Shown here: piece by piece, positions 8,337 to 62,457 of the stretch
Layout of the letters: each line of letters starts with the position of its first letter
Position numbering within the stretch: the stretch's first letter is position 1
From: Acholoe squamosa
Taxonomy: Eukaryota > Annelida > Polychaeta > Phyllodocida > Polynoidae
NCBI GenBank assembly: GCA_949317995.1
Contig: OX439040.1
Span: 55,028,089-55,092,088 of the forward strand
Direction of reading: 5' to 3'
DNA: 64,000 bases
Program-made: the position numbers and the translations under genes
The notes under the pieces: model-generated
Told to the model about the DNA's origin: nothing
The model's input: only the letters and a program-made list of their open reading frames with translations
Database searches by the model: none

Positions 8337-8339
8337 TCT

Positions 8340-8802: not shown

Positions 8803-8830
8803 AACTATATATGTCACTAATATGAATATA

Positions 8831-9939: not shown

Positions 9940-10013
9940 GGGTTTGAGGCTATATTTTAGTTTACTGATTTGAAATAACACCAAGATACCTCATCAAAAA
10001 TGTACATTGCTAT

Positions 10014-12139: not shown

Positions 12140-12356
12140 TTGAAAACGTACAAACATCTTTATTCATCTTGGCCATACAAATAATGTTTAAAATTGACAA
12201 CGCTGAGTACAAGTAATGTAAGGAGATGTATCAACAGATGAGTGAGCTGGGTTGAACCCATTTACCCCAGGAGGCATGTGGCTCCACCTGGTTCCTGACT
12301 CTAGGTGAATGATGAAGGTGAAAATATGAGGTATCCATGACAACCGAAATCCCTTT
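12140..12356 (-). other. calmodulin-like 3' UTR with polyadenylation signal
   Basis: AATAAA on the minus strand (plus positions 12159-12164) lies about 190 nt after the stop codon. The gene therefore ends about 5.3 kb from the likely TRIM-NHL 3' end, tail to tail. Confidence 0.55.
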
Positions 12357-12385
12357 TTACTTTGCTGTCATCATGGTCACGAATT
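12357..12385 (-). CDS. calmodulin-like terminal exon
   Basis: A 29-nt coding tail encoding (E)FVTMMTAK and TAA. The acceptor AG is at 12387-12386, in phase 1 with exon C. It is far too short to appear as an open frame, but the exact calmodulin C-terminus and matching phase make it convincing. Together with exon C it yields [16 protein letters not shown]. Confidence 0.9.
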
Positions 12386-15300
12386 CTGGAATGCAGAATA
12401 AGGAGAGATCGTTATTTGGCACGAGTAGTCTCTCTGTATTAGCTCACCATGTATATTTGGTTGATTCCATAAAATAGTATGTTAGTACTGGGTTATTGTA
12501 CGTAACAGCTGCTCATGCCTGAGAATCTGAATGTTGCTAACACAACCTTAATGTTTTGGAGCAGTAAAATGCAGATGGTGGAAGGCCCTTAGGGGAGTAT
12601 AGCCCGTTAAGGGTGTTGTGGTAAGAACATGCTTGTATTAACCCATAAAAGAGGGATGTGTTTATTTAAGAAAGTAATTAAGCAACAAGCACCAAGTTAG
12701 CATTTAGGAAGAATGGTATTAACATTATTAACCGAAGATACTCTCTAACTGATCAATGAATGCTATGAACGGTTATTGTTTCTCAAAACTGTAAAGGGTT
12801 CTTAAGCAATTCTATCGTTCCTTATAAATTGTCCATACTATATCCCTCAAATACTCTCTCCTATTATCCTATTTGTGGCTGTACCTCTTTCAAATAACAT
12901 CGAAATCACCTACTAAGTATTGCTCTCGGTGTTTTCAACCCTACAAATACCATCGCAGTAATGTCTAATGGACAAAATAGTACAACAGCCATTGACAATT
13001 ATTAATGGAAATTCAACTATTTATCAAACGAGAGGTACTCTGTTTAACCAAACAATGGAAATCTCACATTTTTGTTCTTCGGTAATTCTATGTGCTTCCA
13101 ATCCCCTCATGACCAATTTCCCCAAACCACCATATGTCCATTAGAAAGGTATAATCTAACGGCAGCACATCGTTCAATACTTAATATGAATAACCGAGTG
13201 TTCCATATTCCTTAAGCAATAGTGTATTCATGGTAGCTGAGGGATGTATCGGTAACCTATTCATGACCGATTTACTGTCAGCGCAATAGGATAAAAGATG
13301 GTTAATGCTATAGTAGGGAAATAACATCGTGCACCATAGAATCTGATCTACACAGTAATTTGGCCAGACATCGGCTGTGGCAAGGAAGGAAAATGTTCAA
13401 TGGTAATGATTATGTAGGCTGTATTTGCCAAACAATGTTTTATCAGTAGATTTAGCACCGCACATCAGTTAAATATACCATTGTGATTATTATTTGAAAT
13501 GTACCAATAGACCTACACCTGATATGATTAGGAAGGGATGCGAGGAACAGGTGGAATAGAACTATCAAGCGATACACTTGTTGTATACAATTTTGCACCT
13601 GTTGGAGTAAGTCTTGACATTACATGATATTTATATGCATAAATATATAGATAATATATACAATGGCAAGAGTAAGTAAAATGTGCAACTATTCTCCAAT
13701 TTGTGAAAATAGCTCCCGTACCATCTTCGTGATCAGCAATAAATCACCAATAGATAATTGAGTCTACGGAAGTCAACTGAGTATGTTTTCACAATCATTT
13801 AGATATACATCGTAATGCATTATTACAACACAATCCTTTGAGAGAAAGACATATATCATAGCTGTAAAATGATGTGTACACCTATATGCAGTTAATACTG
13901 TAGATTGTCCAAGTCACGGCATGGGACGATACTTGCATATAATGCAAATATAAAGGGCATTCCATGTTCTAACTAATATATGCATGATACGTTGTGGACC
14001 ACTAAGTCTTGATGGACCAGTGGCAATACGATAATCTGTAATTTCAAAGGCACAGAGAGGACAAAAAGGCTTGTCTCACTGAAACTGACTCAGAAGATGT
14101 GATTCGATAAAAGTTCAAACTGTTTCAACGTTTCTTAGTAGTGTACCAATGCAATATAGCTATATTTCCCATTTGTTGGAACCATCCATAATCCGTGAAT
14201 GGGTCGAGGGGTACAGGTTATTTTGGGGGATTTGCTTGATAACAAATGCAGAAAAATTATGCCAAGAATCTATGGATGATCCCTTCCAAGTACATGTATG
14301 TAAAGGCTCAACTTTTCTTAAAGGTTGACAGAGAAATTTGCCAATTATCACGTTAGGCAGTCTGTAAGACATATCCCATACACCGGTTGATACAATATAT
14401 ATGACAAGTTGTCACAGCCGTAATACATCGTGAGCAGTGTAGGGATCGACAACAGTCAGACCCAATACCTGGACAATCAGATAAATATATATGCATATAT
14501 GCTCCCGATAAGCCATAGTTCTATAGACTCAATTAAATTCTTTGAAGTAATTCCCACATTCAATATTACCAATATCGTATTGAAGAGAAAAGAGATCAAA
14601 TGGGACAATCTTCGAATATATGCAGACTTGCTAATTGCATAATATTTAGGATAGATATATATGTATCACTCTCACAGTTTCACGGAAAGGTTTTTGATAA
14701 CCACAGAGTTTTACCATAAACATTGATTAAACAACACGGTTTATTTTGAGTCTAGGAAGGTAAAGGTTCTCTGTATTTCATAGCTCCAGTAACTTTCATA
14801 GCTCGGTGCTACATGTACTAACCCTGCCGATATTAGACCCACTTCTGGCCCTGATCTGACCCACTATGAAATTATGCCCCACTCATTTCGCCAGACATGC
14901 ATGCAATTTAGATAATTTATACGTAATATCGCACGTTGGACCGTCGTCCTATATTGCAGGAGGCCATTTCTTAAGGTACTATGACTGCGTATAGCCACTG
15001 CGATTTGAAAACCTAAATGTTAGTACCAGTGATTGTAGTTAATGCCTTACGACTGCTCAGTGCGACCAGCACATAGTCTTTGGTAGGGCAGTCGTAGAGC
15101 TCCAGGTACTATATTACTAATACTATTGGGTTGTATTGTCACCCAAGTAAGGGTCCCCACTGTGATTTGAAAGTAAGCAGGCAGAGCCTGTTAAGAAATC
15201 GTTACCGGACAATTTAGGAATTAAGCCGCGTCTTCGCAGATCAAAACCCTCTCTCGAAATGAATCTGGCCAAAATGAAATTAATATAGTTAGACACATGT

Positions 15301-18300
15301 TAGAGTCTGGAAATCATCACGAGGGGGTCAAGATCATTGTAATGCCAGATCATTCTTATGTTTTTGTTTACATCCTCTATAGTGATTTCCTCATATTTGG
15401 CTCCCGAACTGCTTTAAGTATAACATAATATGTAACTCACGGCGGTGACTCACTAACATAAACGGCCTAAAATGTGTAATTCTTAGATAATTGAAGGATT
15501 GCTAGGGTTGGCCATGTAGAGCTTAAAATAAACTTTCTTTGTCGTACAAACGTACATGCATATCAAAGGTGTATACCTATCTGAGAAATGAGAGTCATTA
15601 GAACACCCAATAGATTATTCCTACAGTTGCCATTACAACATCTCAATTGAAACAACCAGTGCATAAGAGTAAAAATACCATACATGAAACCAGAAAAAAA
15701 ATATTACAGCAAACACAATATCATAGAGTAATGATGCGTCAAACCATGCATCATATAATTATAAAAGGTTGAATTTAGCCACAACTTAATAAGGGTTCAC
15801 TCCATTAAGGCCTCAAGGCCTCTAGTCCCATTTCTCATTTAATAGGCCTATACAACTTGTGTTCTTTTCGATATATAGAGAAGGTATGGAATCAGAAACG
15901 ATAATTTCGGTTTGACTGTTTCAGAAATATAGCAGTTTAAACATGTGTTCTTGATTAGTCAAAGTATGCTTTGTCACACGTTGTATTGACCTTCCAGTCA
16001 CCTTCAGGCATGGAGAACCTGTTCTGTTGGCATGACAACCTGGAGTAGCTCCTGAAGACGGCCGCACGCTGTCAGGTCGTCTGATTAGCTGTACCCTTGG
16101 CAAGCAAAGTCAGGCCTAAATTGCTTCGGCCTCGTCCTCAGTGATATCAGCATTTCAAGTTGCAAGTACTCGTTGGGAGACTGCTTTGAATGACTGAGAA
16201 TTTTTGTTGTTTGCCCCCATCGGTGGGAACCAGACAAGAGAGAGTCCGCTGACATTGTCTGTCGGACATTCAGTCGTCAACTGCCACGGAAGTACGGCTA
16301 CCCTTGACTTTGGCCAGTTTGCGAACGAAGATGGGCCGAGCATATGTTGTAAAATCTGCAAATGAAAGAGGGGTGATGCGGGGAAAGCTTTGTTAGATCA
16401 TGCACACAGGAATGTTATTTTCAACAAATTACCCGGGGGTGTTTTTGAATCTGATGCAATAATATGAGTGTCTATAGCAATATCACATGCACTGTAAAAA
16501 AAAAATTGTCGAAATTATGACGGAATCCTCGTCCCAAAGTTGCCAGAGATCCATCGTTATTTTCATATGGATTCCGTGTACATTTGTTTACAGCCATACT
16601 GCCACCTGGATATTATTGTAAAAATTAATCTAGTTTACAGCAAGCTTAGGGAGTGGTCATTATTTATCAACAGGGGGGGGGCGGTGGTGGGTTTGAGGGG
16701 GGGCGTAAAATTTTCAGACCCCTCCCGAGGGGGGGCTAAAAAGATTTTGACCCCTCTTGAGGGGGGGGCTAAAAAAATTCACCCTCTTTTTAGCAAAAAT
16801 AGCCCGCGCGCTACTATAGATCAAAGAGGGGCGCGAAAACTCTCCGCCCCTCCGGCGCGGGGGGGGCGCAAAACAATTTGACTGCTGTCGAGGGGGGGTG
16901 TAAAAAATTTTCGCGCGTCCGCACGAAAACCCACCAACCCACCCCCTGTTGATAAATAATGACAACTCCCTTACAGTGGTTCACTGTTTTGCAAGGATCA
17001 TTGGTAGATTCCACATTTATTTTTTACAGTGTGACGAGAGATAAAGCGCAGTCAGGTCAGAGTAGTATTAAAGAAACTATAAAACGCAATGAAACAAAAA
17101 AAAAATAAAAAAAAAACAGCACAGTGGTCACGTGCACCAAAAAAACACTGTCTGCATCCCACCCACTCCCCTCCCGCCTGAGGAGTCTGAAATCTGCCCC
17201 CCCCCCCACACTTCTGAAGTATTGCGGCAAATATGCCTGATAAATGGCGGCAACAGAGAGGTATATCGCTGAGGTAATAACAGTTACCTCAGCGTGCCTT
17301 GTTGATTGCCAGCTGGCTATACTTTGAAATAAAAAAAAATCAATATTATCTTTCATTAATGCATTTTATAGCATATAAAACTATCATGATATTATGAACT
17401 CTTGTACAATCATGATTAACTCCCAATAGGCGTTATCATCTATACCACCTCCCCTTATTGTCAACTACGTCCATGCATGTAGCCTGTTTGTATTCACTTA
17501 TTTTTATACAGCCTACCGTCGACAATAATTATAGTTGGTCATATATGTACAACATTTTGCCCATTTAAGATAATACTCAACCACTTACCATTACGTTTGA
17601 CAATTCCCATTATAGTAATTACCATAGATATTGAGCCACTATAATCATAGCTGACTTTCTTTATGGCTGGCTATACCCACCATTATAATTGACCATGCCG
17701 TCACCATCCAAATCGGCTTCCCTGATCATTTCGTCCACCTCCTCGTCTGTTAATTTTTCACCCAGGTTTGTCATGACGTGACGTAGTTCTGCCGCAGATA
17801 TGGCGCCGTTTCCGTCCTTGTCAAACACCCGGAAGGCTTCCCGTAACTCGTCCTCACTGTCTGTGTCCTTTATCTTCTTGGCCATCATGTGAAGGAACTC
17901 CTCAAAGTCAATGGTGCCATTTCCTGGAACCAATAACAGAGATAAGGTAAGTGCCAACATTATCACGGCATCTTTTACCTTCGCTTAAAGCTGCAACAAG
18001 ATCTCAAATATATGGATCTTCCACTTTCTCCATGTTTTTATCACAGTACTTGTTACAGTGTTCTGGTGAAAGCTCAATCTATTTCATAAGTTCAAGCATA
18101 TATCTGTGTGAAAATAAAATGTTTCCAGCATTTTATCCAGTCTTGATTGCACCTGCACCGTGGCGTCATCTGAAGCCATACAGCCAAGTTGCATTACCTA
18201 TTGGTGGTTACTTTGATTTGGATGTGTGACAGGGGAACCGGCCAATAAGTGCTGCCACCTGGAGGCTGAGACTATTACCAATTAACCAAGACGTTTCCCT

Positions 18301-21300
18301 CCCCACCAAAAGGCCAAACTGATGTCCTGTATTTTGCATATAATGGGCCAGCTTTTACCAGAATAAATTGCACCCTATTACATAGGGAGGGGTATACAAT
18401 TCTGTGAAATACATATCAGAAAAGGCTATACCAGATTTTATACCAGCTTTAAAACTACAACTTCTTTCCGTCATCCTTTACCGTTGACCATCAGTGGGCT
18501 ATGGGAAAGAAAATACAATCAGGAGGGTCTTGTCAAAAAAGGTAATGTAAAAATATCTAGACAGGTTCTTTCTCATCTTTTCGTAAGACCCTACAGAAGA
18601 ACGTGAAAATAACTATCTGAATTGGTTCAATTCTATTGAATCTTGGTATGACAGCAAGTTCATCAATACATCTTATTGACAGTGTACCTTGGAATAGCCA
18701 TCGCACCATTCCAACAACGATATTAATTTTGTTCATCTTAGTGATGTCAGTAGTAATATACTACAGTTCAAATCTTACATTAGTAGATATGTCATCATCA
18801 ACGCCAAGCTTTAATAGTGTCATCAACAAAACTTGAAATGTCGTAAATCATATGAACAGGTATATACCAGTCGATGGAGAGGTACAAGAGACTTGATTCT
18901 TGCATCCTGTTGTTACATTGTTCAACAGTCTTGTCTGAATTACATCTCCCCACCACTTAAACAATTATTATAAGCTGAAACTCAACTGCGATTCCTTGGA
19001 CTGAATCCGCCGCAGATTGTTAAAATACAAAGGCAGATGTTTAAAACACCAAGGGTGTCGACCAGGCATTTCACTGATGCTGATTCGATCACAGGGTTTT
19101 CAATACAAAACTCCACAGAAGCCAGTCCCAGAAGTTGAATATAATGGAGTTTGAGCAGTATGAATGAAATGCCGTAAACATTTCTGCTTACACCCTGCCT
19201 GAAGTTCATCTCACCCACAGCACACCCAACCCCAACAATCTGTATCTTCACCAGGAGGACATTTCAATACAGCCTACCATCTCACTCAGTCACTAACAGC
19301 AGAATGATTGCCTAGCACTGCATGCTGCGATATTGAATTGGTTGTCTTATATCATAATACCCTCGAGCTCGCCTGTATGGTGTACCCTGACTTCAGGCAG
19401 ATAAGTCGCACCTTGTACACGAGGTACTATGATACACAAGTTTGATCTGCAATTAGTGAAACCCCTATGATTAGAGCATTCGATTTTACCACATTCATTG
19501 AATGTAGGTAGCATAGGTATTGTTTTAGGTTGATAATATTACCAGAAAGCGATTGCGCTAACATTGATCCTTCTAAATATCAAAACTGATCCAGGCGCAA
19601 CACAGGCCGCTTTGAAATAACCTCCTGGGCACCTCCTCACCTGGCACCCTAACCCATGTTAGCAGCTCACCTCATATAACTGTAGTACCTGACTCTTCAC
19701 CCCATTCCATCACGAGGCCCTACTATCCATCATATATAGTGTACAACAGCTCCTCAAATGCTCAGTGTTACTAAGATGGCCGATTTTGTTTCATAGATTA
19801 GGCTAAACGTTGCTAGCTTTCACTCATTTGCAAGCTATGCAATAACACCAAAATCAAAATAGATAATCGGTATAATTCAGACCACCATCAAGTTAGGATT
19901 TTTTTATTCCACTGGAATCTCTGTGAAAAGTCATCTCTACATTCCCTCTATATCTGTATACATATTCTCCTCGTATCCATATTATATCATTTGCACATTT
20001 CAAACTTTATGTATACAGTCAGTATAGTGACACCTAAAAATGGCTGAACCTTTGCTGTCGATAGGGTTCTTTATACCTCTGTAACCAACAGAATTATGTA
20101 TTGTTGTTCATCCATTTGCCTTTTCCCAAATTGCGTGTGTCTCTTGCACCTGGACACCCTGCCCTTCCTCCATCCTAGACACCTGTTTACAGCCGTCTCC
20201 TCATCCATCTAACTATTGGATAAGGGAGGACTAGACTTCCCAAGTAAGTGGCTGAGATGAGCTATAGACCTTTGTGCAGATCAAACATGACTTGGACAAA
20301 TGCATCTTTTCACTTTATCTATGTCTAACTGATGTGAATGTACTATGATGTACTTAAAAATTATTCATCTTTAAAACCTCATCAATATACCCTTGCATAG
20401 GCAGTTTCTGTGCCGTCTGAAGCACTGGTTAGATAGGAACTACTAACTGCTGAAAGTTACCCAAGCTTGCAGCTAGGGTCTATAGTGAGGGAGTAGCTCA
20501 GGTATTCAGGTAGAGCTCAGTGACCTCTGACCTGCTCACTGCAGGGTGGATGAGCCGCTGGAGACTATACCGACTCAAATGACCCTCTCCCATGCAGGAC
20601 GACTAATCTATAGTTGTGTAGAATGGTACTTTACTAGTTTACATGTGCAGAAAAAAACAACAGAATTCAGTTATTATCTACAGAAATACTGTTACTAGAT
20701 CTTGTATCCATAATATTGGGTGACTAGATCCTTGGCCGTACTGAAACATTTAGCATGCATCTTTGATATAATTGTAATGTAACATGGTAAGTAAGCAAGC
20801 TGATAGCTCTGTTATGCCAAACACCTGTCACATGCCAAAGGGTCTGCAGATCACATTTCATGTATTCACAAATGTGAACAGTGAAGCCGTTAGCTCCAAA
20901 TATCCATACTTTATGTATCACAGAGAAGAGCAGAGAAGAATGAAGTATTGGAGAAAACTCCACAGATTATCATCTGATCTCCTCGTTGTATAAACATTGA
21001 ATATTTTCAATAAAACCTTGAACTTTACTTGACCTTGTCTGGTTTTGTGTCCTATATATCTTTCCAGTAAAACTAGAGAGAGAGAGAGCACAGAGGGTTC
21101 GTGGGTGAGGGCTTGGGTTGAGAACAGCTTAGAAGTGGGAAAAGGGGTGCCTAGGAAGGGAAGTTGGAGGAGTTGAGGTCAGGTTATATGAGGTCAACAT
21201 AGCAAAATGGCATATATGTTTGGCTGGAAAGGATACCCACAAATCCTCTTAGCAAGAGTCTTGATTGATACTGCATGGTATCATAAGGATTATCCCAAGA

Positions 21301-24300
21301 ATGAAATGATTATAACAGGAATGGGCGAGCTTTGATTGAAATCACCCAACATATTAGATCTAAATAAATAACGTATGCCTCTACCTGTGACAAGGGGTCT
21401 GCAGTTGACAGCCCGGGACTGAGAGAGGTCTAGGAAGTATTCTGTGGAAGGTGACGCCAATGATACATCCCAGGTACATCCCAGCTTGTTGACCTTGTGT
21501 ACAAATTTAGGTATAATAACCATCATGTGTCTACCAACCTACTCCATACTCGGCCTTATACCCTACCTGCACTGCTCAGCTCATACCTGCAGTCCACCCA
21601 ACACCCGCTCAGGAGTCACTTGAGGGTCCACAAGCCTGACAAGGTGAGAAGAGAAGCCAGGACTTGATTCCTTATTAGAACCATCAAGGATCTGGAGGGT
21701 GTTGCGAAATTGTTGAAACTCAGTTCTGTCGGAGCAGCTATTCCCAAAAGGGAACTGACTTCCTCATGGTAAACAATTCCCTATTGTGTTGCCTAAAGAT
21801 AGGTGCTAACTGGAGTGGTTCCAGTGGTCCAGAATCAGTGAGTACTTCCCAAGTAAGAACCCGTTCCCTTGTAGTTCCTTCATCTAATTCCGTGTCCTAA
21901 ACAGGTTCCCATTACAAGTACTCCCTTTAATTATAGTATGGGGTTTGGATTGCATACTCAGGGTGGAGTAGAGCTGGGAAGTGCAGAACAACTGACTTCC
22001 ATGAGAAATAAATTCCCAATCTTTTCGCAACAGCCTCCTGGCAATATAGACAAGAATGCCAATACATCCATGAGTCATGTAGGATTGCCTTTTCGTTGGG
22101 GGAAATAGAACCAGGGCCGCTGGCAGTGTTCCCCTAGTCAATTGATTTTAATATTAATCCTACGTGTGCGTAAGAATGTTGATTGGCCCTTTATTACCAT
22201 GGCATACTGTCTTTTGAATACTCTTGCTGCTTATTGGCTGTCTAGCTTTATAGCATGCTCCTGAAAACTCTTACACACAACTCTGATGGCCCGACATTTG
22301 AAAGACAAAATCCTTGACTTGTGATGATGTTATTCAACTGTTACAACCATTTAATGTGGGAGAATCTAAGGTCCTTCTGGCAAACATTAATTTTCATACA
22401 GCCAAGGGACACTCTGAGACAACCAGAGCGTGATCCCCAGGCAACGCTGATCACGCTAATCACATGCACCGGCCTAATTGATGGGTACTCTAGCCAATGA
22501 TGTGATCTATTATCTTAAGGGATGGTGAAGAGAAGGGTGTGCTGAGCTGGGGTGGATCATTACACCTCAACATGTGAAATGAGAAAGACATGCCTTCACT
22601 CTCAACCGTGCACCCATGCAAATACTCCTGTTGGAAAACCGAGAACTCACAGAGTGTACTCTTCTAAGGGAAGACACCAGATATCCCCAGGCCCTGCACC
22701 ATTGTCCCCACCTATTTTAGGGTGTGTGTGGAGGGTGGGTGCTCATCGACTGCAAAATTGTATTAGGATGTAACTGACGAGAGAATGGAAATGGTAGCAG
22801 TCATAATGCAGTGGCTAAACCACTGGATCACACACCAAGTGTCTCCCTTTTATATTCAGTCCTCAACCCTGCACCTGGAAAGAGAAGAAGCCACATGAAA
22901 GGAAGAAAACAAAAAGGAGGAATGAGGTTCCAGCAAGAGGAAATAGAGGGGACCCCTAAGCTGGCTAAAAGGTGCAAGATGGAGTCTTACAAGATAACCT
23001 GATGCCCCTGAATAATTTACCTCCAGGTCCTCCCACACCACAGTTCGCATCCCCTGAGGGTTTCAGCTGAAGGACAAGGGTCAATCCAATGGGGGCCAAG
23101 AGAGTTCAACCAACCATCTATTGCCTAGAGGTAGGCAACTAGATGGGGAGAACCATGGCAGTCAGGGTACCACGGGAGGACGTAAATAATGCTATCCACA
23201 GACTATAAGACCATGGCAGAATGCTCTCCAGGGCAGACTCAGTGGCTTCTTCAGACTATACCATCATCTACAGGGCACCTACACCACACCAACAGGCCAG
23301 AGCCAGCAGCCACTTCCACGAAAGGTACCCGGCGGGCAGCTTCAGCTGCATCAGTAGCCTTAGCCTTGAGGTCAGCAAGCACTGCATCTAGCTCTGCAGG
23401 GTCACTGCCCCCCTCTCTTGCCTGCTAGGCCTACACCAATGCCTATATCTACTAGGCCCACGCCTGTTCAACCTACATCAACCTCCACACCTAACCCCCA
23501 GCTCCAGGTGGAGCTGGGGGTTAAGCACAGCCCCCCCCCCCTGGTCCTACCGTAGAGAGTACAACTGGATACCAAGGGCCAGAAGTGTTAATTGTGAATG
23601 TCTAGAAGCTGCTTGATGCTATCCTCTAAAATCCATAACCAAGGACTTTAGGAGGCATCTCAATCATATGATCATAGACCATCCCTAGGACCTCTAAATT
23701 AGATGAACTACATGAGATATAGGCCTATGAAATACACGAAATATGAGAAATAGTGTCCATGGCAGATAGAGAGGAACTGAATTGAGGTCGAATCTCAAAT
23801 GGCGATTTAGGGCTCCAATATGTCTGCATCTTGTCTTTTGCATTATAGGGGCATTGCACCTGTCACATTGTCTATTGACAGGCATGACAGGTATGCCCAC
23901 AGTGGCTCACAGCAGACAGGCGTCTAAGAGTGCCGTACCCTTATATATTATTAGAGTAACACCAGGCCCTTGGCATGTCAACTCAGTCTTTGACATGCCA
24001 AGGGAATCTCAAGACATGTGTGGATTCCACCCGGCAATGGTCACCATAGTGTCTAACTGTTTCTGTCCCAAACACAGGGGTCACCGATCGATTCTAATTG
24101 TACAAAGGGCTTTCTTTCCCCATAGACAAATTGGTGCATCTAATTCCAATTCTAATGCATATTTATTGTATAACTAAGGAATACAGATCATAGATATCCC
24201 ACTGAACAAGATCTCGAGAATAACTTAGAAGTTTCTCGAGTCCCGACTTGTGAATACAACAAGAACAGAGAACTTGATTTTCCCTGGAAATTTGGACACG

Positions 24301-43206: not shown

Positions 43207-43267
<61 letters not shown>

Positions 43268-52200: not shown

Positions 52201-55200
52201 GAAAACTCTCCGCGCTTTCGCCGCGGGGGGGGGGCGCAAAAGATTTTGACTGCCGTCGAGGGGGGGCGTAAAAAATTTCCGTGCTTCCGCATGTAAATCC
52301 ACCACCCCCCACCCCCATTGATAAATAATGACCACTCCCTAAGCAAAAAAAGAATTAGAACCACCGTTGCTAGGTAACTGATCCTCCTAGCAACAATGCA
52401 AGTTTACCATTATTTTCCCGAGAGTGACTTCAGGGGTAAGCCTACACATGCTGACATTCTTTTCTAAATGTCAATTTTTTATGCTTAGCATTTAGTATAT
52501 TTGTAGTTTTATAGGGTTACTAGGCGAAATGGTTTCCATGGCAATTTGTTGATAAAAAAAAATACAGGCCAATTCTAAGGGTTAGTCACTATAGGGCTCA
52601 TCATACCAACTCTCATTCTTGTATCATGATTTGCACGATTATCTTGGTGATCTGCCTCACTTATGAGTAGGTAAGGTGAAGTAATCTTTTTAAATTTTAT
52701 CATAAGGTCTTATCATTTTCATTGCTTTTTTCTTTTGTTGTTTTTTGTCCCCTGTTAAATAATGGTCTTTTGGACAAATCATGACATTGGAATTCGTTCA
52801 AATATAGAGGTGGTTTCTTACAACCACTGATTCGTTTAAATTGAGGGGAAAAGATAACTCAATCTGATTTTGCCAACATGAGAAATACGCCCCCCCCCCA
52901 CCATCACCACCACCACCACCACACACACAGACACATCCATCTTGTAATAAATGACTCCTCCCTAAGACAGCTCGATCACACAAGCACATGCAAGCAGACC
53001 AAATGGGGAGGTTTTGTAAAACAATACACGCACTGGTCGATTATCTCTCCAAATTGGTGTTCAATTCCAATGGCAGTCGATAGTGTATGGAGATAATAAA
53101 GTGAAATGTCTACTACAATTAGACTAAGCTTGAAAATGATCTTCTTTATAACAGAACTAGTGCCTTCGGCACTAGTGTGGGGGGGGGGCATGACCCTAGA
53201 TTTCTTTTCACGGCAAAATGTGGTTATTTCTCATTTGTACGGACGGTAACTACGTACGTATGTAGTAAGTCGCCAAGGTAACATTTCACGTGCGTACGGC
53301 CCACACCATTTTCCCCAGGGGACAGATTAGTGTGCTTCAGTATGGCATGCGTCATTTAAAGGTCTAAATTCTCCAAATTTAGACCACTTATGGCATTTTC
53401 ATCTACAGGGAAAGATGTAATGATTAAAAAATATGACACTGTAGGCATCAATATTAGTTTTTGGGGTCCTCTCAGAAGGTTGAGGTTTAGTCAATTTCTC
53501 TGGAACTACCCCATCACATCTTAACATATAACATATCAAATGAAAGGTCTCAGTGAGTGGAATCTAAATTTAGAATCGGTGATCAGTTTCCTTCATAAAT
53601 AAAATCGGGCCAGGTGCTGATTTCTTTGAACTGAGATCCAAGATGGCCGAAAATGCAGAGAACAAAGCTCTTGTCATTTTGAGGCTAGAGGCTATTGTTT
53701 AAAAATACTCTCTACTTTTATATACCGTTGAATCAGGGGCATAGAAAAAGGGGGGCCAGGGGGGCCGAGCCCCCCCCCCCCAATCATGAAGGAGGTGGGG
53801 CCTGAGTATGTCTGGGCTCGAATATTTAAACTTTACATCTCAAATTAGATATTATGGTGATGTCATAGGGAAAATGGGGGTCTGGGCCTAAGTCAGATCC
53901 AAAATTTACCAAAAATTACTTTTCTATATGAATTCAATATACGCATATACATACGCCATCACGCATCAGCCGACAATTCAAGGTGGTCGCAATGGTGCCC
54001 TCGCCGGGCCCCCCAAATGGAGATTTGCTTCCTACGCCTCTGTGAATCTATCATTCACTTGATAGAAGGAGACTTTTATCATATATGGGCCTCTAATAAT
54101 ATTATTAGCAGTGAAAATCTGAAGAAAAATCGAGTTAGTTTTGAAAAAAAGTACATACTTTTATCTAGCCTCTTTTGGTTTACGGTATCTGTTCCTGGCA
54201 AGCACTCAAGCTTAATCTAATGGGGTGGGAACCAGCGACGAAGTAATGCCTTTTTATATATAGGGTAATCATAACTTTTGATTCATTATGCTCTGTTTCA
54301 ACCCTGGAGCTTATTCCATCGGCAGCATAGGCCACATATCGTGAAGAAATCAACTATAATCCTTCTCATACAGAAAGACGTACATTAGTGTTATACTGCT
54401 ACGACTATACAGAAAGACGTACATTAGTGTTAATACTGCTACGACTGTGTTAACAAATCCTCCTATGTGCATGATACATAGGTGGCAATCTTAGGGAGGG
54501 ATATCTGATGACAGCATGGCCCTCTAATAAGAATCGTCAGTGAATTTTCAGATCGTCAGTTACACTGAAATAAGCCCCTGGATAGGTCGGTTGTCCTTCA
54601 CTGGATCAAATTTAGGTTTTGCTCATGTTGGGCTGAGAGTGCGCGACAACCTTGGGGTTATAACAGTAGGTTAGGGTACTGGAGGTGCATAATCAGCAAG
54701 GAGGCTCTAAAAGTCAGAGGTGTTGGCAATGGCTTGGGCTGAGCAGGGTGAGATGGGGTGTGCACAAGATGCTCGTGTGGAGGAGGAGGGGGCGGGGGGT
54801 TGGGGGCGGGTTAACAACCGACTATGAATCGTAGAGGGTCAATCATGGAGCATTCACACACGTGGTACCAATACCCTTCATAGAATAGAGCCTGAACAGA
54901 ATTGAGTAAAAGAGTACTATTTTGCTATAAGCCGCCAGTACATATGTGTGTAGGTCATGGCTGTATGTCATTTTAATGAAATACCTGCAAATGATTATAA
55001 AACAGTTCCCAATAGAAAAACCATCAAGTCAGCAAATTTATGGACAGGCTCTGAACAGCGTCATCTGCTTCCCTCCGGGTGCCAGTCAAACGGCCCCCCC
55101 CCCCCAACCATTTAGCCCCTGGACATAAGGCACCAGGTCATTTGGCTGTGATGACATTTGGCCACATGGTCAAATGGCCCCCAAGTAACAAGGACACAAT

Positions 55201-57646
55201 TGGTTACAATGTTGACTGGAGGCACTGATGACATACTGGAGGCACTGGTGATGTACTGGGGGCACTGCAGCTTCTGACCCCCCAGGGGGTATTGGAATAT
55301 ACCGCCTGGGCCACCTATTGAGTTTTAGTCTCTGTTGTAACTGCTAATTACCCTACTCTTTCAATGGAGTTATGTCTTTGCTCTTTCCCCATACAAAATC
55401 ACTGGTTCCAGTTGGTTAACTGCTCAATGATCCCACATGTCAGTACCAGATGAAGTATTCTGAATATTCAATACCACCTGACCAAAAGGGTCTCTAATAT
55501 CAGAATAGGCACCCTAGATTGCCCATTTTAACTGGGTCACTACTCACAAGAAAAAGTCGGTCCAGGCCCGTAAATGGAGCCAGGTATGAGCAGAAGTAGG
55601 GCCTGGATAATCGAGGCTGGGGGCACTGGTGACGTACTAGGGGCACTGATGACATACTAGGGGCACTGATGACATACTGGGGGCACTGATAATGTACTGG
55701 GGCCACTAATGATGTACTGGAGGCCCTGATGATGTACTGGAGGCACTGATGACAGACTAATGATCTATGGTGACGTATGATGATGTACTGGAGACACTGG
55801 TGACATACTGGAGACCCTCAATGACCAATGGAGACACTGTTGACGTACTAATGACTTATGGTGACATATGATGATGTGCTGGAGGCACTGATGACATACT
55901 GAGACACTGATGATGTACTGGAGGCACGGATGACGTACTGGAAACACTGATGATGTACTAGAGACACTGATGATAGACTGATGATGTATGATGACGTATA
56001 GTGATGTACTGATGATGTGTGGTGATGTATGATGATGTATGGTGATGTACTGATGATTTATGGTGATGTGCTGATGACGTATGGTGATGTATGATGACAT
56101 ACTGATGATGTATGATGACATACAATGACGTACGGTGACATACTGATGACATATGGTGATGTATGATGTATGGACTACAGTATTTTGGCCAAAAGACATG
56201 GGGGCCAAATTGTTGTGTGGGTAAATGCATTGTGGCCGAATGACAGGGGGCCAAGTAACATGTGGCCATATGACTGAGGGGCTAACAGACATGTAACCGC
56301 TTCACTCCTCATATAAAACAACAAATGTTGTTTCAACCATGTGTGGAACGCAGGGACCGAAGGGCTATTTCATGTTTGTTTAGAAACAAATGTAGGATGT
56401 TTAAAACACTCCCTACCTTTGCACATGATAGATTAACACATTAAGTACATTAGTATCACCAAACAGATAAGGTCGAATCCCACATGGCGAAAAATGGCCC
56501 CCCACAAGGGCCATAAAACGCAAGGATTGACCAACTCATTCCGAATCCCACAGTGGTTTAGGGACAAGTTTGCAGTAGTCCTTGCGTTTTATGGCCTCAA
56601 CAAGGGCCATACTACGCAAGGGACAAAATCGCAGAGATATTTCAGCCATTTTTCGCCATGTGGGATTCGACCTATTAATGAATTCCTAGTCTAGGTGTAA
56701 CATGTAGATATAAAAGAATAACAGAATGGGAGGAAGAGGAAGCTTTTAAATAATATCTAAAAAGCTGTGTTTCTGATTACCAAATCACAACTTGATTTTC
56801 TGCCCATGTTGTAACGTTATGGCCGTGTCAATCTAGATAATACTAATTTTTCTGCTTTATTTTTATAATGCCCTCCTGATCAACAATATTATTTGAATAT
56901 CTCTTGTGTTAAACACGTATACGCCACGGGCCCACTGCGATACAACTAAAAGGGGTAAATACCTTGGGGGTAAATCCCACGCAGGGTTTATGGTAGTGCT
57001 TTAAACGTGCTAAAATCCCGTTTTATATACTGTGCAGATAAGATGTAGTAAAGTCCAGCTTAAGGTTCACCTAGGTCTAGGTACCGGGTATGCTGTAACC
57101 ACTATTCTACACGACGTATTTGAGCTCCTTTCGATCTAAACTGCACTATATACGGAGCTTAGTTCCAGGGGCCTATCAGAATTAATACTCGACCTTGAAA
57201 AATTAAATCAGTCGTCACAGTTGTGTGATTAACACCTCTTTCCACATCAAATAATAATCAGAAGCAAACAGAAACAGTTGCTGTTCAGTGCAACTTTTCT
57301 TTTAAACTTAACACTCATCAACTGCCTGCTTCATGGCCATGCTATGATATACGAGGGTCCTTATAAGGCTCATATTATGATTTTTGGAAGGCACCTGCTG
57401 GTAGAGACATTCTGACAAGGGGATGGGACTAGTTTTCCAGTTATATGCTATGGCACTAACCATACGTTATACTATTTATAGGTGAACTATACAATATTTT
57501 GCTCAAATTTTGACACTGATCTGGATTATTCATTTTATCATATGTGAGACTGCTTGATTTCATTCAATATAAATATTCTCTCCGTTTGATTTGACATTCA
57601 TGGCAATATATTGAGAAGGGTAGAGGATCAGGAGGGCATTTCAGAA

Positions 57647-57712
<66 letters not shown>

Positions 57713-60700
57713 ATATATGAACATGATCACCTCCATTATAATACCTATATTCTGGCCCGGTCTTATGGATCTTATAGATCAAGTAACCCAAGATTATACA
57801 TGATTTTATCTCATAAACCTATAAACAACTAGACTAAGTATTATGTGCGCTGAATGTGGCAGGTAGGCGCTGTGTGAGACAGAGGGACACAATGCTGATC
57901 ATACCTGTACAGGTGCACACTCTCAGTCTCCATAGCTATTCCCATTTCCTATTTGCTTATACAGAACCTATTACTTGATTTCTAAATGTAATAGCTTATT
58001 CTACAGACAACGTGTACGATAACCTGAATACATATGTACAGTAATGCTTAAAGAAATGTTACACTGCATGCAACATACACAGGTTATAAGTGATGAAATA
58101 TTAAACTCTAAAATATATTACCTGCACAGTATGCTCTGCATAGTAGAGCTATATAGTGGGAAATGTATTGTCTTTAAGATGGTGACATTTATATTCCAAT
58201 TATTGATGAGATAATTTCAATATCTCAGTGAAGGACCTAAGGATAACTGCAAAGAGAACTATTCTCTAGACAAAGGCTTCAATGTATTACCTGCTAAAGT
58301 CAATTAACTGATACCCATTTCAAACACAAAGCCGGTGCAATGTGAACCAGCACCAGAGTGCTAATGCATTCAATGATTTTGCCCATAAACTGTTGATTCC
58401 TGGTCGAAATATCGTTAAATCTGAACGTTTAAAAAACATTCGTCATGATTCAGCTTCTACATATCAGTATTGATTCAGCACTGTGCATGGCAATATTGAT
58501 GAAGTAGTAGTAGGATTATGAGAATATTGGGAAAATAAGCATGAACAAAAGACGCAGATTCTATATGAAAAAGAAGGTAGAAATCTAGCTGAGCTTTAAC
58601 ATGTGCAAAGGGTATGAAAAAATGGGCTGTTCCAGGGCTGCCATCGGAGGTTTATAAACACGGACTAGGAAGCCACTCCTGCCAGCCAGAAACAGTATGT
58701 GGCGGCATACACTGACCAGTCTATGGGTGTTCCGTCCCTCCACAATATTGTGGAGGGACGGAACAACCATAGACTGTTCAGTGTAGTGGCGGCATTGCCC
58801 ACCCACATCACTGTTCCCCTTGTTTCCTAACACTTATGGAGAAGCCATTATTCAACAATTGGTAATACATTGGTAATTACATGCTAGCCTTTCTCTCCCT
58901 ATCCCCACCAAAGGGACATACATTCTACGGACCACGTTATCATAAAATATATTTCACGTAGATGAGCAAATTTCATGTAGGTAAACAAAGCACAAGGTAC
59001 AGGTTCTTGTTTAAATAGTCTTCCTGTAAAATACTGTTATGTCAATTAGGAAACATTTCTTTAGAGAAGGGGCACCAAATGGTTGACAGAGGGCAGTCAG
59101 GTTAACAGACAGCCATTAAATTTTAGAACTGCTTTTGAGGATCATCTCAACTTTTGGTGTCAATGACAGCCAGCGTTATGCCTACAAATACAATTGCATC
59201 GGCATATTAGGCATACAATTGCATCGGCATATTGAAAAAGAACTGTGCGTATAAGGCCAAATCCCACAATGTGAAAATGGTGGGGAAATTGTTGTGAAAT
59301 AGGATATGTGGGTGCTTAGCCGATATTGGGGTGGTAATATCGTCTAGGGAAGATCTATAAAGGCTAAGAATCCCTGTCAAAGTGCTGGTATTTAGGGAGT
59401 ATAGTACGTCAAAAGTTTTTGATATTTTCTTCACAAAGGGCTTGAAATCTCTGTGATAGACTCAAAATCCCTCTGATTTAGAGGAAAACAACAGTTTCTA
59501 GGAAATCAGAAGAGGTGTGTCTTTGATAAATCAAGAGCCAAGTTCCACATACTACAGTCATAATGGGAGTCTGCTTGTGATTTATGCAAGCTACATTTGT
59601 TTATGCTATGCAGGAGACCATTGCAAACCACAGAAAATAGTCAGAGACAATTGTGATTTTAATATCAAATACTCTGTGAATCATTCTAGTAACTCATCTG
59701 TGCAGTAATGAAAATCACAGAGATTCCCCTGCTACTATCAGCTATAGTCGGATTTGGAGTGGTAAGAAGTGCAGGGAGTACCCTTGTGATTAAGAAATTG
59801 GCAAGAGTCCAATGTTGCCGATATCCAGAATCACAGACATTTCATACACATTTTTCACATGGTGGGATTTGGCCTATAGTTAGTTCCTTAGCGGCAATAA
59901 CTACCATTGATAAGTCATTGCTAAGTATTGGTTACACAGCACATATATAGCACGAGGTACAACTATATATATATAGCTTATTATTATGTCCTTTTTAATA
60001 GGTATCTGCCCTCCACGGCGTCTAAGTATAAACTAATTGATCGCAAGTAAGAGAGTGTCAACAGTTCTTTTATCATGTGTAATATGAATAATTCAACTGA
60101 TAAGTTAAGCAGCCTAGGGAGACACCATCGGTATCATCATCACCCAGAACACGCTTTGTTGGTGTTGATGATATAGTGTTGGTCAGCTGACCAATGAGAT
60201 TTTTTTGGTAGATGAAATGATTAGTTTGTACCTTTGGATGTAGCCCATTGAATAATAAAATGAATTTGGCAGACATTACAAGATTCAACAATTTGAAAAC
60301 TCTTGCAGATTGGGAGCCGTGCCTCTGCTGCAAATTGCAAGGGCTTATGCCATTGCAATTCCAAATCCCACTGATGCAGTAAAAATTACCTCTCAGCCTT
60401 GCGATATAGACCATATGAGATAAGTAAGCCGAGTGAAGATTACTATGGCATTCTTTTTTATATTGAAATTGCAGGCTGATTTGGATAATTCCAGTGTACA
60501 ATTAAATAAAGATTGAACTCTCTGTGTATATAGTTTATGTAGACAGAATTGCAGCATAGAATGAAGGATTAGATTGTAAATAGGAACTTGGGTTGCAAGT
60601 CGAAGGGGACAAGCATACCTTCATGTCCAAGATTTTACCCAAGTTTCTGGAATTTACAACATATTCTGGCAAATTGCAGAAACTTTAAGCAAGAGCAAAT

Positions 60701-62457
60701 ATCTAAAAATCTAGATCTTTATTTGACTACCACTCTGAAAGCACTGAAAACCTGAAAGATCCGAAACTAGTCAGCGGTGATGACTTTAGGTCCTCCAGTT
60801 GACGATACCTAAAACTACAGCTTTAGGTAGTCAAAATGATGACATTAGGTCGTCATCCTGATGACCTAAGTCGTCAGTATGACAATACTGACAGTACAGA
60901 GTTGTCATACTGATGACTTAGGTCATCAGGATGATGACCTAAAGTCATCATTTTGACTACCTAAAGTTGTAGTTTTAGGTATCGTCAACTTGAGGACCTA
61001 AAGTGGTCACCACTGACTAGTTTCGGATCTTGCAGGTTTTCAGTGAGAGTTTCCTTGATATTACAGCTCCCTGTGAATATTATATCTCTTGCATTATGTA
61101 AAAAGATGCAAGGTGGGATTCGACCTTGATCAACTTCATTCTTAGAAACGTATTTTTAAATGTTTCCTAATTTTTATGTGGGGACGGATGCCTTTTTGGA
61201 CTTTGAGGCAGTTATCTGAGAGAGTTGAAAGTGTCATGACGGCAATACCTGTGCATTGGCACGCTGTGCAACATGTCCGTTTTGAACTGGTTAGGGTGCT
61301 CTAGGAACCCCTCTAACCAGGGATTAATTATTGCAAATCAGATTCTCAAATGATTATTAAAAGTGACCAATGCTCACCACGATGTCTGTTGCACAACACT
61401 AAATCATCAAATGCATGGAAATGTGCCTCGGACTATCCATACCGGGGTTTTGTGGTGCAAATATAAATTCAGGCCATCAAATCGTTAAGAACATTTACCA
61501 CAATGCGCCAATACATAAGACCCCCATTAGACCTGCTATGACTGCGCTACCAAATCCTATGTATACCACACTACATGCGGACCAATTTTAGATAGCGATG
61601 TCCTCGGCTTATTCTAATGCAATATCCCTGACGGCCTGATATAGCTACTATATTGTCACTGTCCGGGATACAGAAATAGTACACAGACAACAGTATGGCT
61701 CTGCAATGATATAGCCAAAATCATCAGTGAATTTTCAGATCGTCAACTACATTGCAATAAGCTCCTAACCTGTCGCAAAATGTCATAAAAAATCCAATTA
61801 TACACATAATTAATGTCATAGTTTGTGAGAGTAGTCTTAGTACTGTTAACTCTAATGTAGGTCAATATAAGCGGCTTATTGTGGCATTATTGGTGAGTGG
61901 GGGCACGTGATTCTTCAAAAGCCACGTGAGTCTTAAAAAGTTAGTGGCACAGGAGCGTGTTGCTCCTATGGTAAAAAGAGCTGTCAGTAGGTACACTCTT
62001 TTCAAAAGAAGTCACGCTCTGCTTCACCATTCAACTTGCACTCACCACATTAGTCTGAAAGAGCTGCACTATCAGGTACCTACTCATGTCACACACTCTA
62101 TAGTATATTATACTGACTGAATTCTCCCAACTAGGTACCTACTCAAATCCCCTTTTTGAGCACCGTACTTGAATGTCCACTTGTGAGCAACAAAAGGGAC
62201 AAGTTATAGCTACATGAAAAGAAAGGACTGGAAACAAGGGCATTTTTAGCCAGCTCTTCCTTTTACCTTAGGAGCAACACCCTCCTGAGCCAAGTGTATA
62301 ATAACTCTTATCCGGTAGGCCTATTTTGGCTTATGCCCCACATGTCTAAGAAAGTGGATATATCCTTTTAATGTGTTTGGAAATGTAAAAATGATGATCA
62401 TGATTATTTTAACATACCTCCTATTTGTTCCTCCGTCAGAATCCTACGCACGTCGTC
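12357..62457 (-). CDS. calmodulin-like EF-hand protein, four exons seen, initiator exon not found
   Basis: Minus-strand join: 62457-62418, 29306-29163, 17923-17681, 12385-12357. This gives 151 codons ending in TAA, open at the N-terminus. Seen: four complete 12-residue EF loops ([48 protein letters not shown]), with all 1, 3, 5 and 12 positions acidic, Asn or Ser as needed for calcium. Family knowledge: calmodulin is a cytosolic calcium sensor that wraps around target helices. Compared with typical animal calmodulin, I count about 20 substitutions plus a changed N-terminus (DDVRRI, three residues longer). Exon lengths 40/144/243/29 and phases follow the classic calmodulin gene, where the first intron falls directly after ATG; a Met-only first exon is therefore likely. 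The changes suggest a paralogue rather than the main calmodulin. Confidence 0.9.
14959..15206. repeat. GGAGGCC foldback element, copy 3, degraded
   Basis: The left end GGAGGCCATTTCTTAAGGTA is well preserved. The right end (GTTAAGAAATCGTTACC) is diverged. The internal ACGACTGC and GGGCAGTCGTA blocks match copies 1 and 2. Confidence 0.65.
16649..16970. mobile_element. PIF/Harbinger-like MITE, copy 2
   Basis: It has the same terminal repeat as copy 1 (GGGAGTGGTCATTATTTATC), with TTA on both sides (16646-16648 and 16971-16973). It is the longest intact copy, because the internal GAGGGG-CTAAAAA segments and G runs are expanded. Overlapping open frames on both strands here come only from this repeat. 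Confidence 0.83.
17681..17923 (-). CDS. calmodulin-like exon C (EF-hands 2, 3 and 4)
   Basis: A 243-nt exon equal to the sum of two separate vertebrate calmodulin exons (107 + 136), so the intron between FDK and DGNG is absent here, as in several invertebrates. The acceptor AG is at 17925-17924 and the donor GTGGGT starts at 17680. The central linker is [19 protein letters not shown]; the Met normally in the KMKDTD segment is Ile. The C-lobe helix [19 protein letters not shown] is unchanged, including the lysine that is often trimethylated. Confidence 0.95.
17985..18452. mobile_element. TTAA-ended element, copy 2 (inverted relative to copy 1)
   Basis: It starts TTAAAGCTGCAACAAG and ends CCAGCTTTAA, the reverse complement of 8831-9315 with moderate divergence. 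It ends only 62 bp from the acceptor side of calmodulin-like exon C, so it lies directly upstream of that exon in the transcript. Confidence 0.72.
23488..23523. repeat. short perfect hairpin
   Basis: TTAACCCCCAGCTCCA-type arms meet around AGGT in the sequence CTAACCCCCAGCTCC / GGAGCTGGGGGTTA. About 16 bp of stem; function unknown. Confidence 0.5.
25268..25442. mobile_element. PIF/Harbinger-like MITE, short subfamily
   Basis: The terminal repeats GGGAGTGATCATTTTTTAAC and their inverse are almost perfect. TTA flanks both ends (25265-25267 and 25443-25445). At 175 bp it keeps the GGTGGGTTTGAGGG and CCCACCAGCCC blocks of the longer family but has lost most of the middle. Confidence 0.82.
26100..26330. 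mobile_element. Harbinger-like MITE variant, left end only
   Basis: It begins GGGAGCGATCACTATTTATG after TTA, then a G run and a series of CCCC-separated AAATTGCCCCC-like units. The matching right end was not found, so the right boundary is approximate and the copy may be truncated. Confidence 0.5.
27171..27365. mobile_element. Harbinger-like MITE variant, left end only
   Basis: It begins GGGAGCGTTCATTATTTATG after TTAA, followed by repeated GGGGGAGGCA-TTTCATTTT units whose sense is complementary to the units at 26100. The right end is not identifiable; the boundary is approximate. Confidence 0.5.
27839..28032. mobile_element. degraded Harbinger-like MITE relative
   Basis: The right side ends CCAGTCCCCCTGTTAAAAAA, resembling the right terminal repeat of the 25268 copy. 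The interior has AAAAATTT-GACCCCTTGA blocks of the same family. The left terminus is missing. Confidence 0.45.
28753..29113. mobile_element. CAGGAG-ended element, copy 1, next to calmodulin-like exon B
   Basis: The ends are CTGGAGGGTGTTGCTCCTAT and its inverse ATAGGAGCAACACCCTCCTG. The family recurs at 38312, 41955 and 61950 with conserved interior (CTTCACCATTCAACTTGC, GGTACCTACTCA). This copy ends 48 bp from the splice donor of exon B, inside the transcribed intron. Confidence 0.75.
29163..29306 (-). CDS. calmodulin-like exon B (EF-hand 1 and start of EF-hand 2)
   Basis: A 144-nt exon, the same length as in vertebrate calmodulin genes. The acceptor AG is at 29308-29307 and the donor GTAGGT starts at 29162. 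It encodes [15 protein letters not shown], then the [13 protein letters not shown] helix, ending in DADG. The first calcium loop carries N and S where calmodulin has D and G (DKNSDG instead of DKDGDG), and ISASE replaces ITTKE. Confidence 0.93.
30104..31631 (-). pseudogene. 5'-truncated LINE fragment (L1/Tx1-like C-terminal region)
   Basis: On the minus strand, broken frames read a [17 protein letters not shown] segment followed by FNWIKRL, then a [15 protein letters not shown] cysteine-histidine motif near 30690. Family knowledge: GGLxxxD...WIKRL after the reverse transcriptase and a late C..H..C motif are typical of L1/Tx1-type second ORFs. Several stops and frameshifts make it dead. The catalytic reverse transcriptase part is absent. 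A 19-bp direct repeat (ATTATTGTTATGTATTTTT) flanks it at 30085-30103 and 31632-31650, as expected for target-primed insertion with 5' truncation. The clade assignment is from memory of motifs. Confidence 0.72.
33057..33096. repeat. 40-bp hairpin
   Basis: GGTAGTGCCTATACTA is mirrored by TAGTATAGGCACTACC around a short AT loop. A perfect 16-bp stem; possibly a tiny foldback remnant. Confidence 0.6.
33316..33800. repeat. 26-bp minisatellite, about 18 copies
   Basis: Units close to TATTGTTACTAAGGCTAGCC followed by ACTCCC are joined head to tail without spacers. Copies differ at several positions (GGTACC, TCACTA, TTATC variants), so the array is not freshly expanded. No open frame runs through it. 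Confidence 0.85.
33930..34060 (+). repeat. possible SINE/LINE 3' tail
   Basis: A segment ending CTGTCGAAATGGCGATAAAC followed by an ACTC microsatellite resembles the 3' tail of invertebrate SINE or RTE-like elements. Only the tail is recognisable and no target duplication was found. Confidence 0.25.
37088..37252. repeat. 165-bp foldback element
   Basis: ATACACAGCT at the left is mirrored by AGCTGTGTAT at the right. The inner arms GGACAAAACTACCAGTTTTA are perfect inverted copies around an AT-rich loop. The arms differ by small gaps. Confidence 0.7.
38312..38676. mobile_element. CAGGAG-ended element, copy 2
   Basis: Left end CAGGAGCGTGTTGCTCCTAT, right end ATAGGAGAATCACCCTCCTG, an inverted repeat of about 27 bp. 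The interior matches the other copies closely. No clear target duplication. Confidence 0.78.
40319..40417. repeat. hairpin-forming inverted repeat
   Basis: GACAGATAACTTGAGCTGT at the left is exactly mirrored by ACAGCTCAAGTTATCTGTC at the right, with a 60-bp loop. Confidence 0.65.
41050..41293. repeat. GGTCGAATCCC-type element, diverged copy
   Basis: TTCCCACATGGCGATCTAGG at the left is mirrored by a CTAAATCGTCATATGGGATT-type right end followed by CGACC. Inner AAATCTCTGCGATTTTAGTC and its inverse also match. The left GGTCGAA end is lost. A half copy stands near 23785. Confidence 0.6.
41653..41919. mobile_element. PIF/Harbinger-like MITE, copy 3
   Basis: Terminal repeats GGGAGTGGTCATTATTTATC in both orientations, with TTA at 41650-41652 and 41920-41922. 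The interior is as in copies 1 and 2. Confidence 0.83.
41955..42309. mobile_element. CAGGAG-ended element, copy 3 (inverted)
   Basis: Ends CAGGAGGGTGTTGGTCCTAT and ATAGGAGCAACACGCTCCTG. Its interior is the reverse complement of the 38312 and 61950 copies. It starts only 36 bp after Harbinger-like copy 3. Confidence 0.78.
43181..43292. repeat. pyrimidine-rich microsatellite
   Basis: CTCGTTCT, then TCTG repeats, then a CT run, then TATC repeats. The overlapping open frames made of Leu, Ser, Cys and Val come only from this tract. Confidence 0.9.
43424..43519. repeat. 48-bp tandem duplication
   Basis: Two adjacent copies of a unit starting ATTTAGGGGATTTTATGTCT at 43424 and 43472 are nearly identical, so the duplication is recent. 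Confidence 0.85.
45453..45934. mobile_element. 482-bp MITE with 8-bp target duplication (hAT-like)
   Basis: The ends are CCCGGGGGGGCCACTCC and its inverse GGAGTGCCCCCCCCCCCGGG. ATTCTATC is duplicated exactly on both sides (45445-45452 and 45935-45942). An 8-bp duplication is the hAT hallmark. The interior consists of repeated ACCCCTTTT-type segments separated by AAAA-rich linkers and has no real gene. Confidence 0.8.
46611..46882. mobile_element. diverged Harbinger-like MITE
   Basis: The left end GGGAATGATCATTTTCTAAC and the right end GTTAAAGGATAATCACTCCC are imperfect inverted copies resembling the 25268 subfamily. No TTA duplication is retained. Confidence 0.6.
48505..49406. mobile_element. 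902-bp AACGTT-rich element with CCCAGGTA ends
   Basis: It starts CCCAGGTACCAAGAAACGTT and ends AATAACCTCATTTTGTTACC plus TGGG. The outer CCCAGGTA(C/A)CAA is an inverted repeat. Inside are many AACGTT and TTGATT motifs on both flanks with a unique centre. Non-coding; superfamily not assigned. Confidence 0.65.
50508..51247. mobile_element. CACTGAAAACCTG-ended element, longer copy
   Basis: The left end CACTGAAAACCTG and the right end AGGTTTTCAGTG match the family at 60742. Both sides carry GACGAGTTT and CGTCAGTGACGACC-like blocks. A unique 400-bp centre separates the arms, so this may be one element or two partial copies. Confidence 0.5.
52049..52339. mobile_element. PIF/Harbinger-like MITE, copy 4, left end lost
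   Basis: The interior and right end (TTGATAAATAATGACCACTC) match copies 1 to 3. The left terminal repeat is missing; the element begins abruptly at the TTTGAGGGG block. This suggests truncation after insertion. Confidence 0.75.
52895..52935. repeat. CAC/CA microsatellite
   Basis: A C run passes into CAC triplets and then CA dinucleotides. Open frames over it on both strands are artefacts. Confidence 0.85.
53734..54042. mobile_element. CAGGGGC-ended MITE, copy 3
   Basis: It begins CAGGGGCATAG and ends TTCCTACGCCTCTG. TGAAT is duplicated exactly at 53729-53733 and 54043-54047. The interior is highly similar to copy 2 at 11162, including the CCATCACGCATCAGCCGAC block. Confidence 0.82.
54370..54448. 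repeat. 39-40 bp tandem duplication
   Basis: Two copies of a unit starting ACAGAAAGACGTACATTAGT lie at 54370 and 54409, with one single-base insertion. Confidence 0.8.
55070..56300. repeat. GATG-type minisatellite inside GGCCA-rich flanks
   Basis: The core (about 55196-56175) is built from degenerate units such as GGAGGCACTGATGACATACT and shorter TGATGTATGGTGA units. Both flanks contain GGCCA(C/T)ATG and CAAATGGCC-like motifs in roughly inverted order. The long His/Ser/Ile-rich minus frames here are the repeat read in translation. Confidence 0.75.
56470..56673. repeat. 204-bp GGTCGAATCCC foldback element
   Basis: AGGTCGAATCCCACATGGCG and its exact inverse CGCCATGTGGGATTCGACCT form the ends. 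The inner arms (CAAGGGCCATAAAACGCAAG and the inverse) also pair. Related pieces occur at 41050, 59254 and near 61113. Confidence 0.75.
57649..57718. repeat. AT dinucleotide microsatellite
   Basis: About 70 bp of nearly pure AT, with two G interruptions near 57705-57709. It gives rise to a spurious Tyr-Ile frame on the minus strand. Confidence 0.95.
58710..58785. repeat. hairpin of about 36-bp arms
   Basis: CTGACCAGTCTATGG and TGTTCCGTCCCTCCACAAT are mirrored immediately to the right around an AATATT centre. Short direct GTGGCGGCAT motifs lie on each side. Confidence 0.65.
59254..59875. mobile_element. 622-bp AGGCCAAATCCC-ended element
   Basis: AGGCCAAATCCCACAATGTG at the left and CACATGGTGGGATTTGGCCT at the right are near-perfect inverses. 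ATA flanks both ends (59251-59253 and 59876-59878), which would also allow a TA duplication as in Tc1/mariner MITEs. The ends resemble the GGTCGAATCCC family. Confidence 0.7.
60742..61045. repeat. 304-bp near-perfect palindromic element
   Basis: CACTGAAAACCTG opens and its inverse closes the element. The arms, about 145 bp each, mirror each other almost completely, including the GATACCTAAAACTACA and GTCATCCTGATGACCTAAGT blocks. The centre lies near 60893. Confidence 0.82.
61950..62287. mobile_element. CAGGAG-ended element, copy 4
   Basis: Left end CAGGAGCGTGTTGCTCCTAT, right end TTAGGAGCAACACCCTCCTG. The interior matches the other copies with one deletion. It ends 130 bp from calmodulin-like exon A. 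Confidence 0.78.
62418..62457 (-). CDS. calmodulin-like exon A (N-terminal)
   Basis: A 40-nt exon encoding [13 protein letters not shown] plus one base. The acceptor AG is at 62459-62458 and the donor GTATGT starts at 62417. The TEEQI motif and phase-1 end match the second exon of calmodulin genes. There is no ATG and an in-frame TGA lies about 24 bp upstream in the intron, so another exon must supply the start. Confidence 0.82.

Follow-up and report, generated by a model that had tools for sequence, protein, structure and literature searches.

Gene structure

A calmodulin-like gene with four visible exons lies on the minus strand of the Acholoe squamosa window (the whole stretch of 64,000 nucleotides that was analyzed) and spans about 50 kb of it. 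The spliced coding sequence comprises 456 nt or 151 codons, and its frame is open down to a TAA stop codon at position 12357. Judged from its sequence, the gene is very probably an intact, extra calmodulin copy. The best explanation, to which we assign a probability of about 0.8, is an invertebrate calmodulin-like paralogue that arose by duplication at the DNA level, diverged under constraint and most likely works as a calmodulin. We infer paralogue status from the divergence of the sequence, and the gene is presumably transcribed. As the introns have been kept, the duplication would have occurred at the DNA level, and a processed retrocopy was rejected. Diverged calmodulin copies are already known in animals, as described for the abalone calmodulins A-D (PMC6171432) and human CALML3 (PMC3630146). 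Such copies are natural experiments on the mutable positions of a highly conserved protein. In the present case the loop positions 1, 5 and 12 and most methionines were kept, whereas other positions of loop 1 and the N-terminus have moved.

The first visible exon is the second coding exon and is located at 62418..62457 (40 nt, bounded by ttgttgcag/GAC and GGAG/gtatgt). It encodes 13 residues, including the peptide LTEEQI, and the first base of the next codon. The third coding exon (29163..29306, 144 nt; tblastn E 6.7e-24) covers EF hand 1 and the start of the EF hand 2 loop. The remainder of EF hand 2, the linker, EF hand 3 and most of EF hand 4 are encoded by the undivided fourth exon of 243 nt (17681..17923; E 1.7e-44), and the last exon (12357..12385, 29 nt) contributes EFVTMMTAK and the stop codon. 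In the tblastn search with calmodulin the 29-nt exon scored only E 1.7 and the 40-nt exon was unlisted; both were assigned by position, phase and encoded peptide (17 protein letters). All seven visible splice sites (three donors and four acceptors) are GT or AG, the exon phases fit, and stops, frameshifts or broken splice sites are absent across the 151 codons. The 40-nt exon has a weak acceptor, with pyrimidines at 10 of 20 positions compared to 15-17 of 20 for the three other acceptors.

In classical calmodulin genes the exon harboring LTEEQI has a length of 31 nt, and the intron phases match those seen here, while in vertebrate calmodulin genes the 243-nt block is divided by an intron. The original prediction that exon lengths and phases are kept exactly therefore holds for the phases but not for the lengths, since the LTEEQI exon is 9 nt longer than its classical counterpart. 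Among the matches listed, the closest precedent recognized is the paper on the abalone Haliotis discus hannai (PMC6171432), and no paper on this particular gene was recognized among the best-ranked literature matches. An annotation of this gene may well exist. According to the abalone paper, the calmodulin genes of this species consist of five exons, of which exon 1 holds the start codon only and exon 4 is undivided, a layout said by its authors to equal that of the sea squirt (PMC6171432). The visible exons and phases of the Acholoe gene agree with this invertebrate layout as described there, as does the lack of an in-frame start in or just 5' of the 40-nt exon.

Reading in frame 5' of the 40-nt exon reaches a stop codon with no ATG before it. 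This indicates that the start codon sits in another exon. No initiator exon was identified in the 1543 nt upstream within the window, where one ATG/gtgaag candidate at position 63900 is unsupported; an exon holding ATG alone cannot be recognized by sequence alone. Due to the position of the start codon in an exon of its own, as reported for abalone (PMC6171432), automatic annotation can miss calmodulin genes. Downstream of the coding sequence, a candidate polyadenylation signal AATAAA was located at 12158..12163 on the minus strand, 193 nt past the stop codon. This motif match is weak evidence, because 13 AATAAA/ATTAAA motifs, this one included, occur within 6500 nt downstream of the stop codon.

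Comparison with calmodulins

The protein aligns with human calmodulin over residues 4-148 colinearly and without gaps, and 126 of 145 residues (87%) are identical. Its four EF hands are in register with those of animal calmodulin (human CALM1-3). Eight of the nine human methionines are kept, and residues 4-148 carry a net charge of -23 in either protein. It differs from animal calmodulin in the absence of an intron from the 243-nt block, in an N-terminus that is three residues longer (DDVRRI in place of ADQ) and in 19 substitutions, namely A10G, D22N, G23S, T26N, T28S, T29A, K30S, A46P, I52V, P66E, T70H, R74K, M76I, E83D, I85L, F99A, I130L, Q135M and E139N. The number had earlier been put at about 20. 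With 19 differences over 145 residues, the near-invariance that is typical of bona fide animal calmodulin is not seen. Eight of the 19 replacements have a positive BLOSUM62 score. In searches of the PDB the matches were calmodulins or calmodulin fusions by name, both in the best 60 of 622 and in the best 60 of 405; 2lv6 and 10nk were among the best matches, and two alignments run over query residues 7-151. The fold of the spliced protein is not in doubt.

The substitutions had been proposed to be concentrated in EF loop 1, the N-terminus, the linker and loop 4. Loop 1 indeed contains six substitutions in 12 residues, compared to 13 in 133 elsewhere (Fisher p 0.0013). No such concentration was found for the linker (residues 74-83, 3/10, p 0.13) or for loop 4 (3/12, p 0.19). 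Likewise, significant clustering was absent from the N-lobe as a whole (residues 4-76, 13/73 vs 6/72, p 0.14) and from loops 2 and 3 (1/12 each, p 1.0). These p values are uncorrected for the six regions tested, and the N-terminus lies outside the counted residues 4-148.

Human CALML3 shares about 85% of its residues with calmodulin, and Karabinos and Bhattacharya (2000) reportedly described CaM-like genes of amphioxus, an invertebrate, that are diverged paralogues of calmodulin. By description, CALML3 is a diverged calmodulin paralogue like the Acholoe protein, and it differs in being intronless and human (PMC3630146). Myosin-10 is the only bona fide CALML3 target named in the available part of that paper (PMC3630146). 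The abalone calmodulins A-D are reported to be 94-98% similar to the human protein, copy A differing from copies B, C and D by three, one and seven residues, respectively, and their expression varies by tissue (PMC6171432). The Acholoe gene resembles these diverged invertebrate copies in the undivided 243-nt exon and the long introns (PMC6171432). In contrast to their 94-98% similarity by the paper's own count, the Acholoe protein is 87% identical to human calmodulin, although the two measures differ (PMC6171432).

Codons were compared with two of the abalone primers printed in the abalone paper (PMC6171432). Relative to the exon-2 primer of abalone CaM C, five of five codons differ and all of these changes are synonymous; relative to the common abalone primer, two synonymous changes and one replacement occur in six codons (PMC6171432). 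The 19 replacements were furthermore compared with 5000 random sets of the same size. As these sets assume that codons are chosen uniformly, that half of the changes are transitions and that none is a nonsense change, the comparison is a rough guide. All four EF motifs were kept in 153 of these sets, the observed BLOSUM62 sum was reached in 138, and a hydrophobic loss as small as that observed occurred in 1330. Only seven of the 5000 sets combined all three properties. Thus, the substitutions look filtered by selection.

Calcium binding and alternative explanations

Each of the four loops matches the EF-hand pattern PS00018. The Pfam model EF-hand_1 assigned 36.5, 39.6, 39.9 and 40.6 bits to hands 1 to 4, which in each case is above the cut-off of 25.4, whereas the hands of human calmodulin reached 41.6, 38.7, 42.5 and 43.1 bits. 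Against the reading as a calcium sensor, three of the four hands score lower than in the human protein; for hand 1 the difference amounts to 5.1 bits. The ligands of an EF loop are provided by positions 1, 3, 5, 7, 9 and 12, as described in PMC3997525. In none of the four loops do positions 1, 5 or 12 differ from human calmodulin, and loop 1 retains D, D and E there. Changes at ligand positions occur in loop 1 at position 3 (D to N), position 7 (T to N) and position 9 (T to S), and elsewhere at position 7 of loop 3 (F to A) and of loop 4 (Q to M). Position 7 coordinates through the main chain. Because the four loops fit the pattern, the hands pass the Pfam cut-off and positions 1, 5 and 12 are unchanged, there is no support for a loss of calcium binding.

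These data also bear on the original prediction of an altered calcium binding by the N-lobe. A specialized paralogue with clearly altered N-lobe affinity would be a sub-case of the explanation preferred here, with which its odds overlap, and it appears possible but unlikely. The accumulation of six of the 19 substitutions in loop 1, among them those at ligand positions 3, 7 and 9, and the lower score of hand 1 point in this direction; they are opposed by the intact D/D/E framework of this loop, which carries an N at position 3, still fits the pattern and stays above the Pfam cut-off. The original prediction is upheld in part: a diverged, intact paralogue is the preferred reading, whereas the residues give no support to an altered calcium binding by the N-lobe; a modest change in affinity is possible. 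The product still looks like a calcium sensor, perhaps a calmodulin-like protein with changed target choice or expression. More speculative, and somewhat less probable than a clear change in affinity, is the idea of a lineage-specific calmodulin, in which the extended N-terminus and the re-surfaced loop 1 would give private targets and the transcription time of the very long gene would delay or restrict expression.

It is improbable that the gene represents the only or main calmodulin of an organism whose lineage has a diverged calmodulin. In favor of this reading, what is visible of the layout corresponds to a bona fide invertebrate calmodulin gene, and all four EF hands pass the Pfam cut-off; yet calmodulin is described as highly conserved across all organisms (PMC2873350), and the identity of 87% stands against the 94-98% similarity to human calmodulin reported for the abalone copies (PMC6171432). 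If the copy were untranscribed, or a pseudogene of recent origin and unprocessed type, this might account for the weak acceptor of the 40-nt exon and for the failure to find an initiator exon in the 1543 nt 5' of it. This possibility is quite improbable given 151 codons free of stops, frameshifts and broken splice sites, and substitutions that are milder than random ones. Under the preferred reading of an intact paralogue with calmodulin function, we infer that the four EF hands would bind calcium as in calmodulin, upon which the two lobes would expose grooves lined with methionines and close around target peptides. The altered N-terminus and the loop-1 surface could then adjust the affinity or the choice of targets, and a regulation of its own could give the gene a narrower, specialized role in particular tissues.

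Introns and repeats

The coding exons are separated by introns of 33111 nt (29307..62417), 11239 nt (17924..29162) and 5295 nt (12386..17680), all on the minus strand. The span of 50 kb had been regarded as unusual. The gene is indeed long, but this is not a novel kind of feature, as abalone calmodulin genes are also reported to have long introns (PMC6171432). For abalone CaM B, a fragment of about 10 kb from exon 1 to exon 2 is described, and for CaM D a stretch of more than 13 kb comprising exon 1 and intron 1 (PMC6171432).

Repeats, both dispersed and tandem, were defined as copies within the window only (blastn, at least 60 nt, E 1e-6). They cover 15%, 11% and 8% of the 33111-, 11239- and 5295-nt introns, respectively, none of the 456 exon bases and 24% of the downstream stretch 1-12356; drawn from the window itself and not from a repeat library, these percentages are lower bounds. 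Dispersed as well as tandem repeats are present in the largest intron. The introns are no richer in window-detected repeats than their surroundings. As the repeat cover of the introns is low and below the 24% found downstream, repeats account for only part of the intron length, and inserted elements would have supplied that part.

A dispersed repeat of about 360 bp occurs in four copies (28755-29113, 38312-38676, 41955-42309 and 61950-62290) that are 78-92% alike in pairwise comparison. Two of these copies lie within introns close to a donor site, one at a distance of about 50 nt (donor at 29163) and one of about 130 nt (donor at 62418). An inverted repeat pair (8831-9316 and 17984-18452) is 93% alike over 486 aligned positions; the copy at 17984-18452 comes to within about 60 nt of the acceptor at 17923. 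The 33-kb intron additionally harbors a foldback element (60742-61045) with arms of 149 nt, 93% complementary, and a loop of 6 nt, as well as two minisatellites, one at 33319-33794 with 18 copies of a 26-bp unit and one at 55215-56168 with units of mostly 20 to 21 bp.

Other features of the window

Neither a tRNA nor an Rfam family at gathering score was found in the window. A scan of viral contigs revealed no relative, and in contigs of prokaryote genomes a single locus was found (L001, 346-839), the best segment of which is 62% identical. The record is labelled as a Verrucomicrobiaceae MAG, and its calmodulin relative possibly represents eukaryotic contamination. Both scans are of no help in placing an animal gene.

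The window contains 141 stop-to-stop open reading frames of at least 70 amino acids, of which 22 were given to Pfam. Twenty of these, including 19 within the calmodulin-like gene, gave no match at E 0.01. Among the 22 of 141 frames scanned, the idea of other genes inside the introns was rejected, since the only matches, a RING-finger frame (1149-1607, plus strand) and an NHL-repeat frame (5110-6159, plus strand), both lie outside the gene. Together with the layout of the calmodulin-like gene, these two neighbors indicate that the DNA is of animal origin. The two frames are perhaps parts of one TRIM-type gene that is convergent with the calmodulin-like gene.
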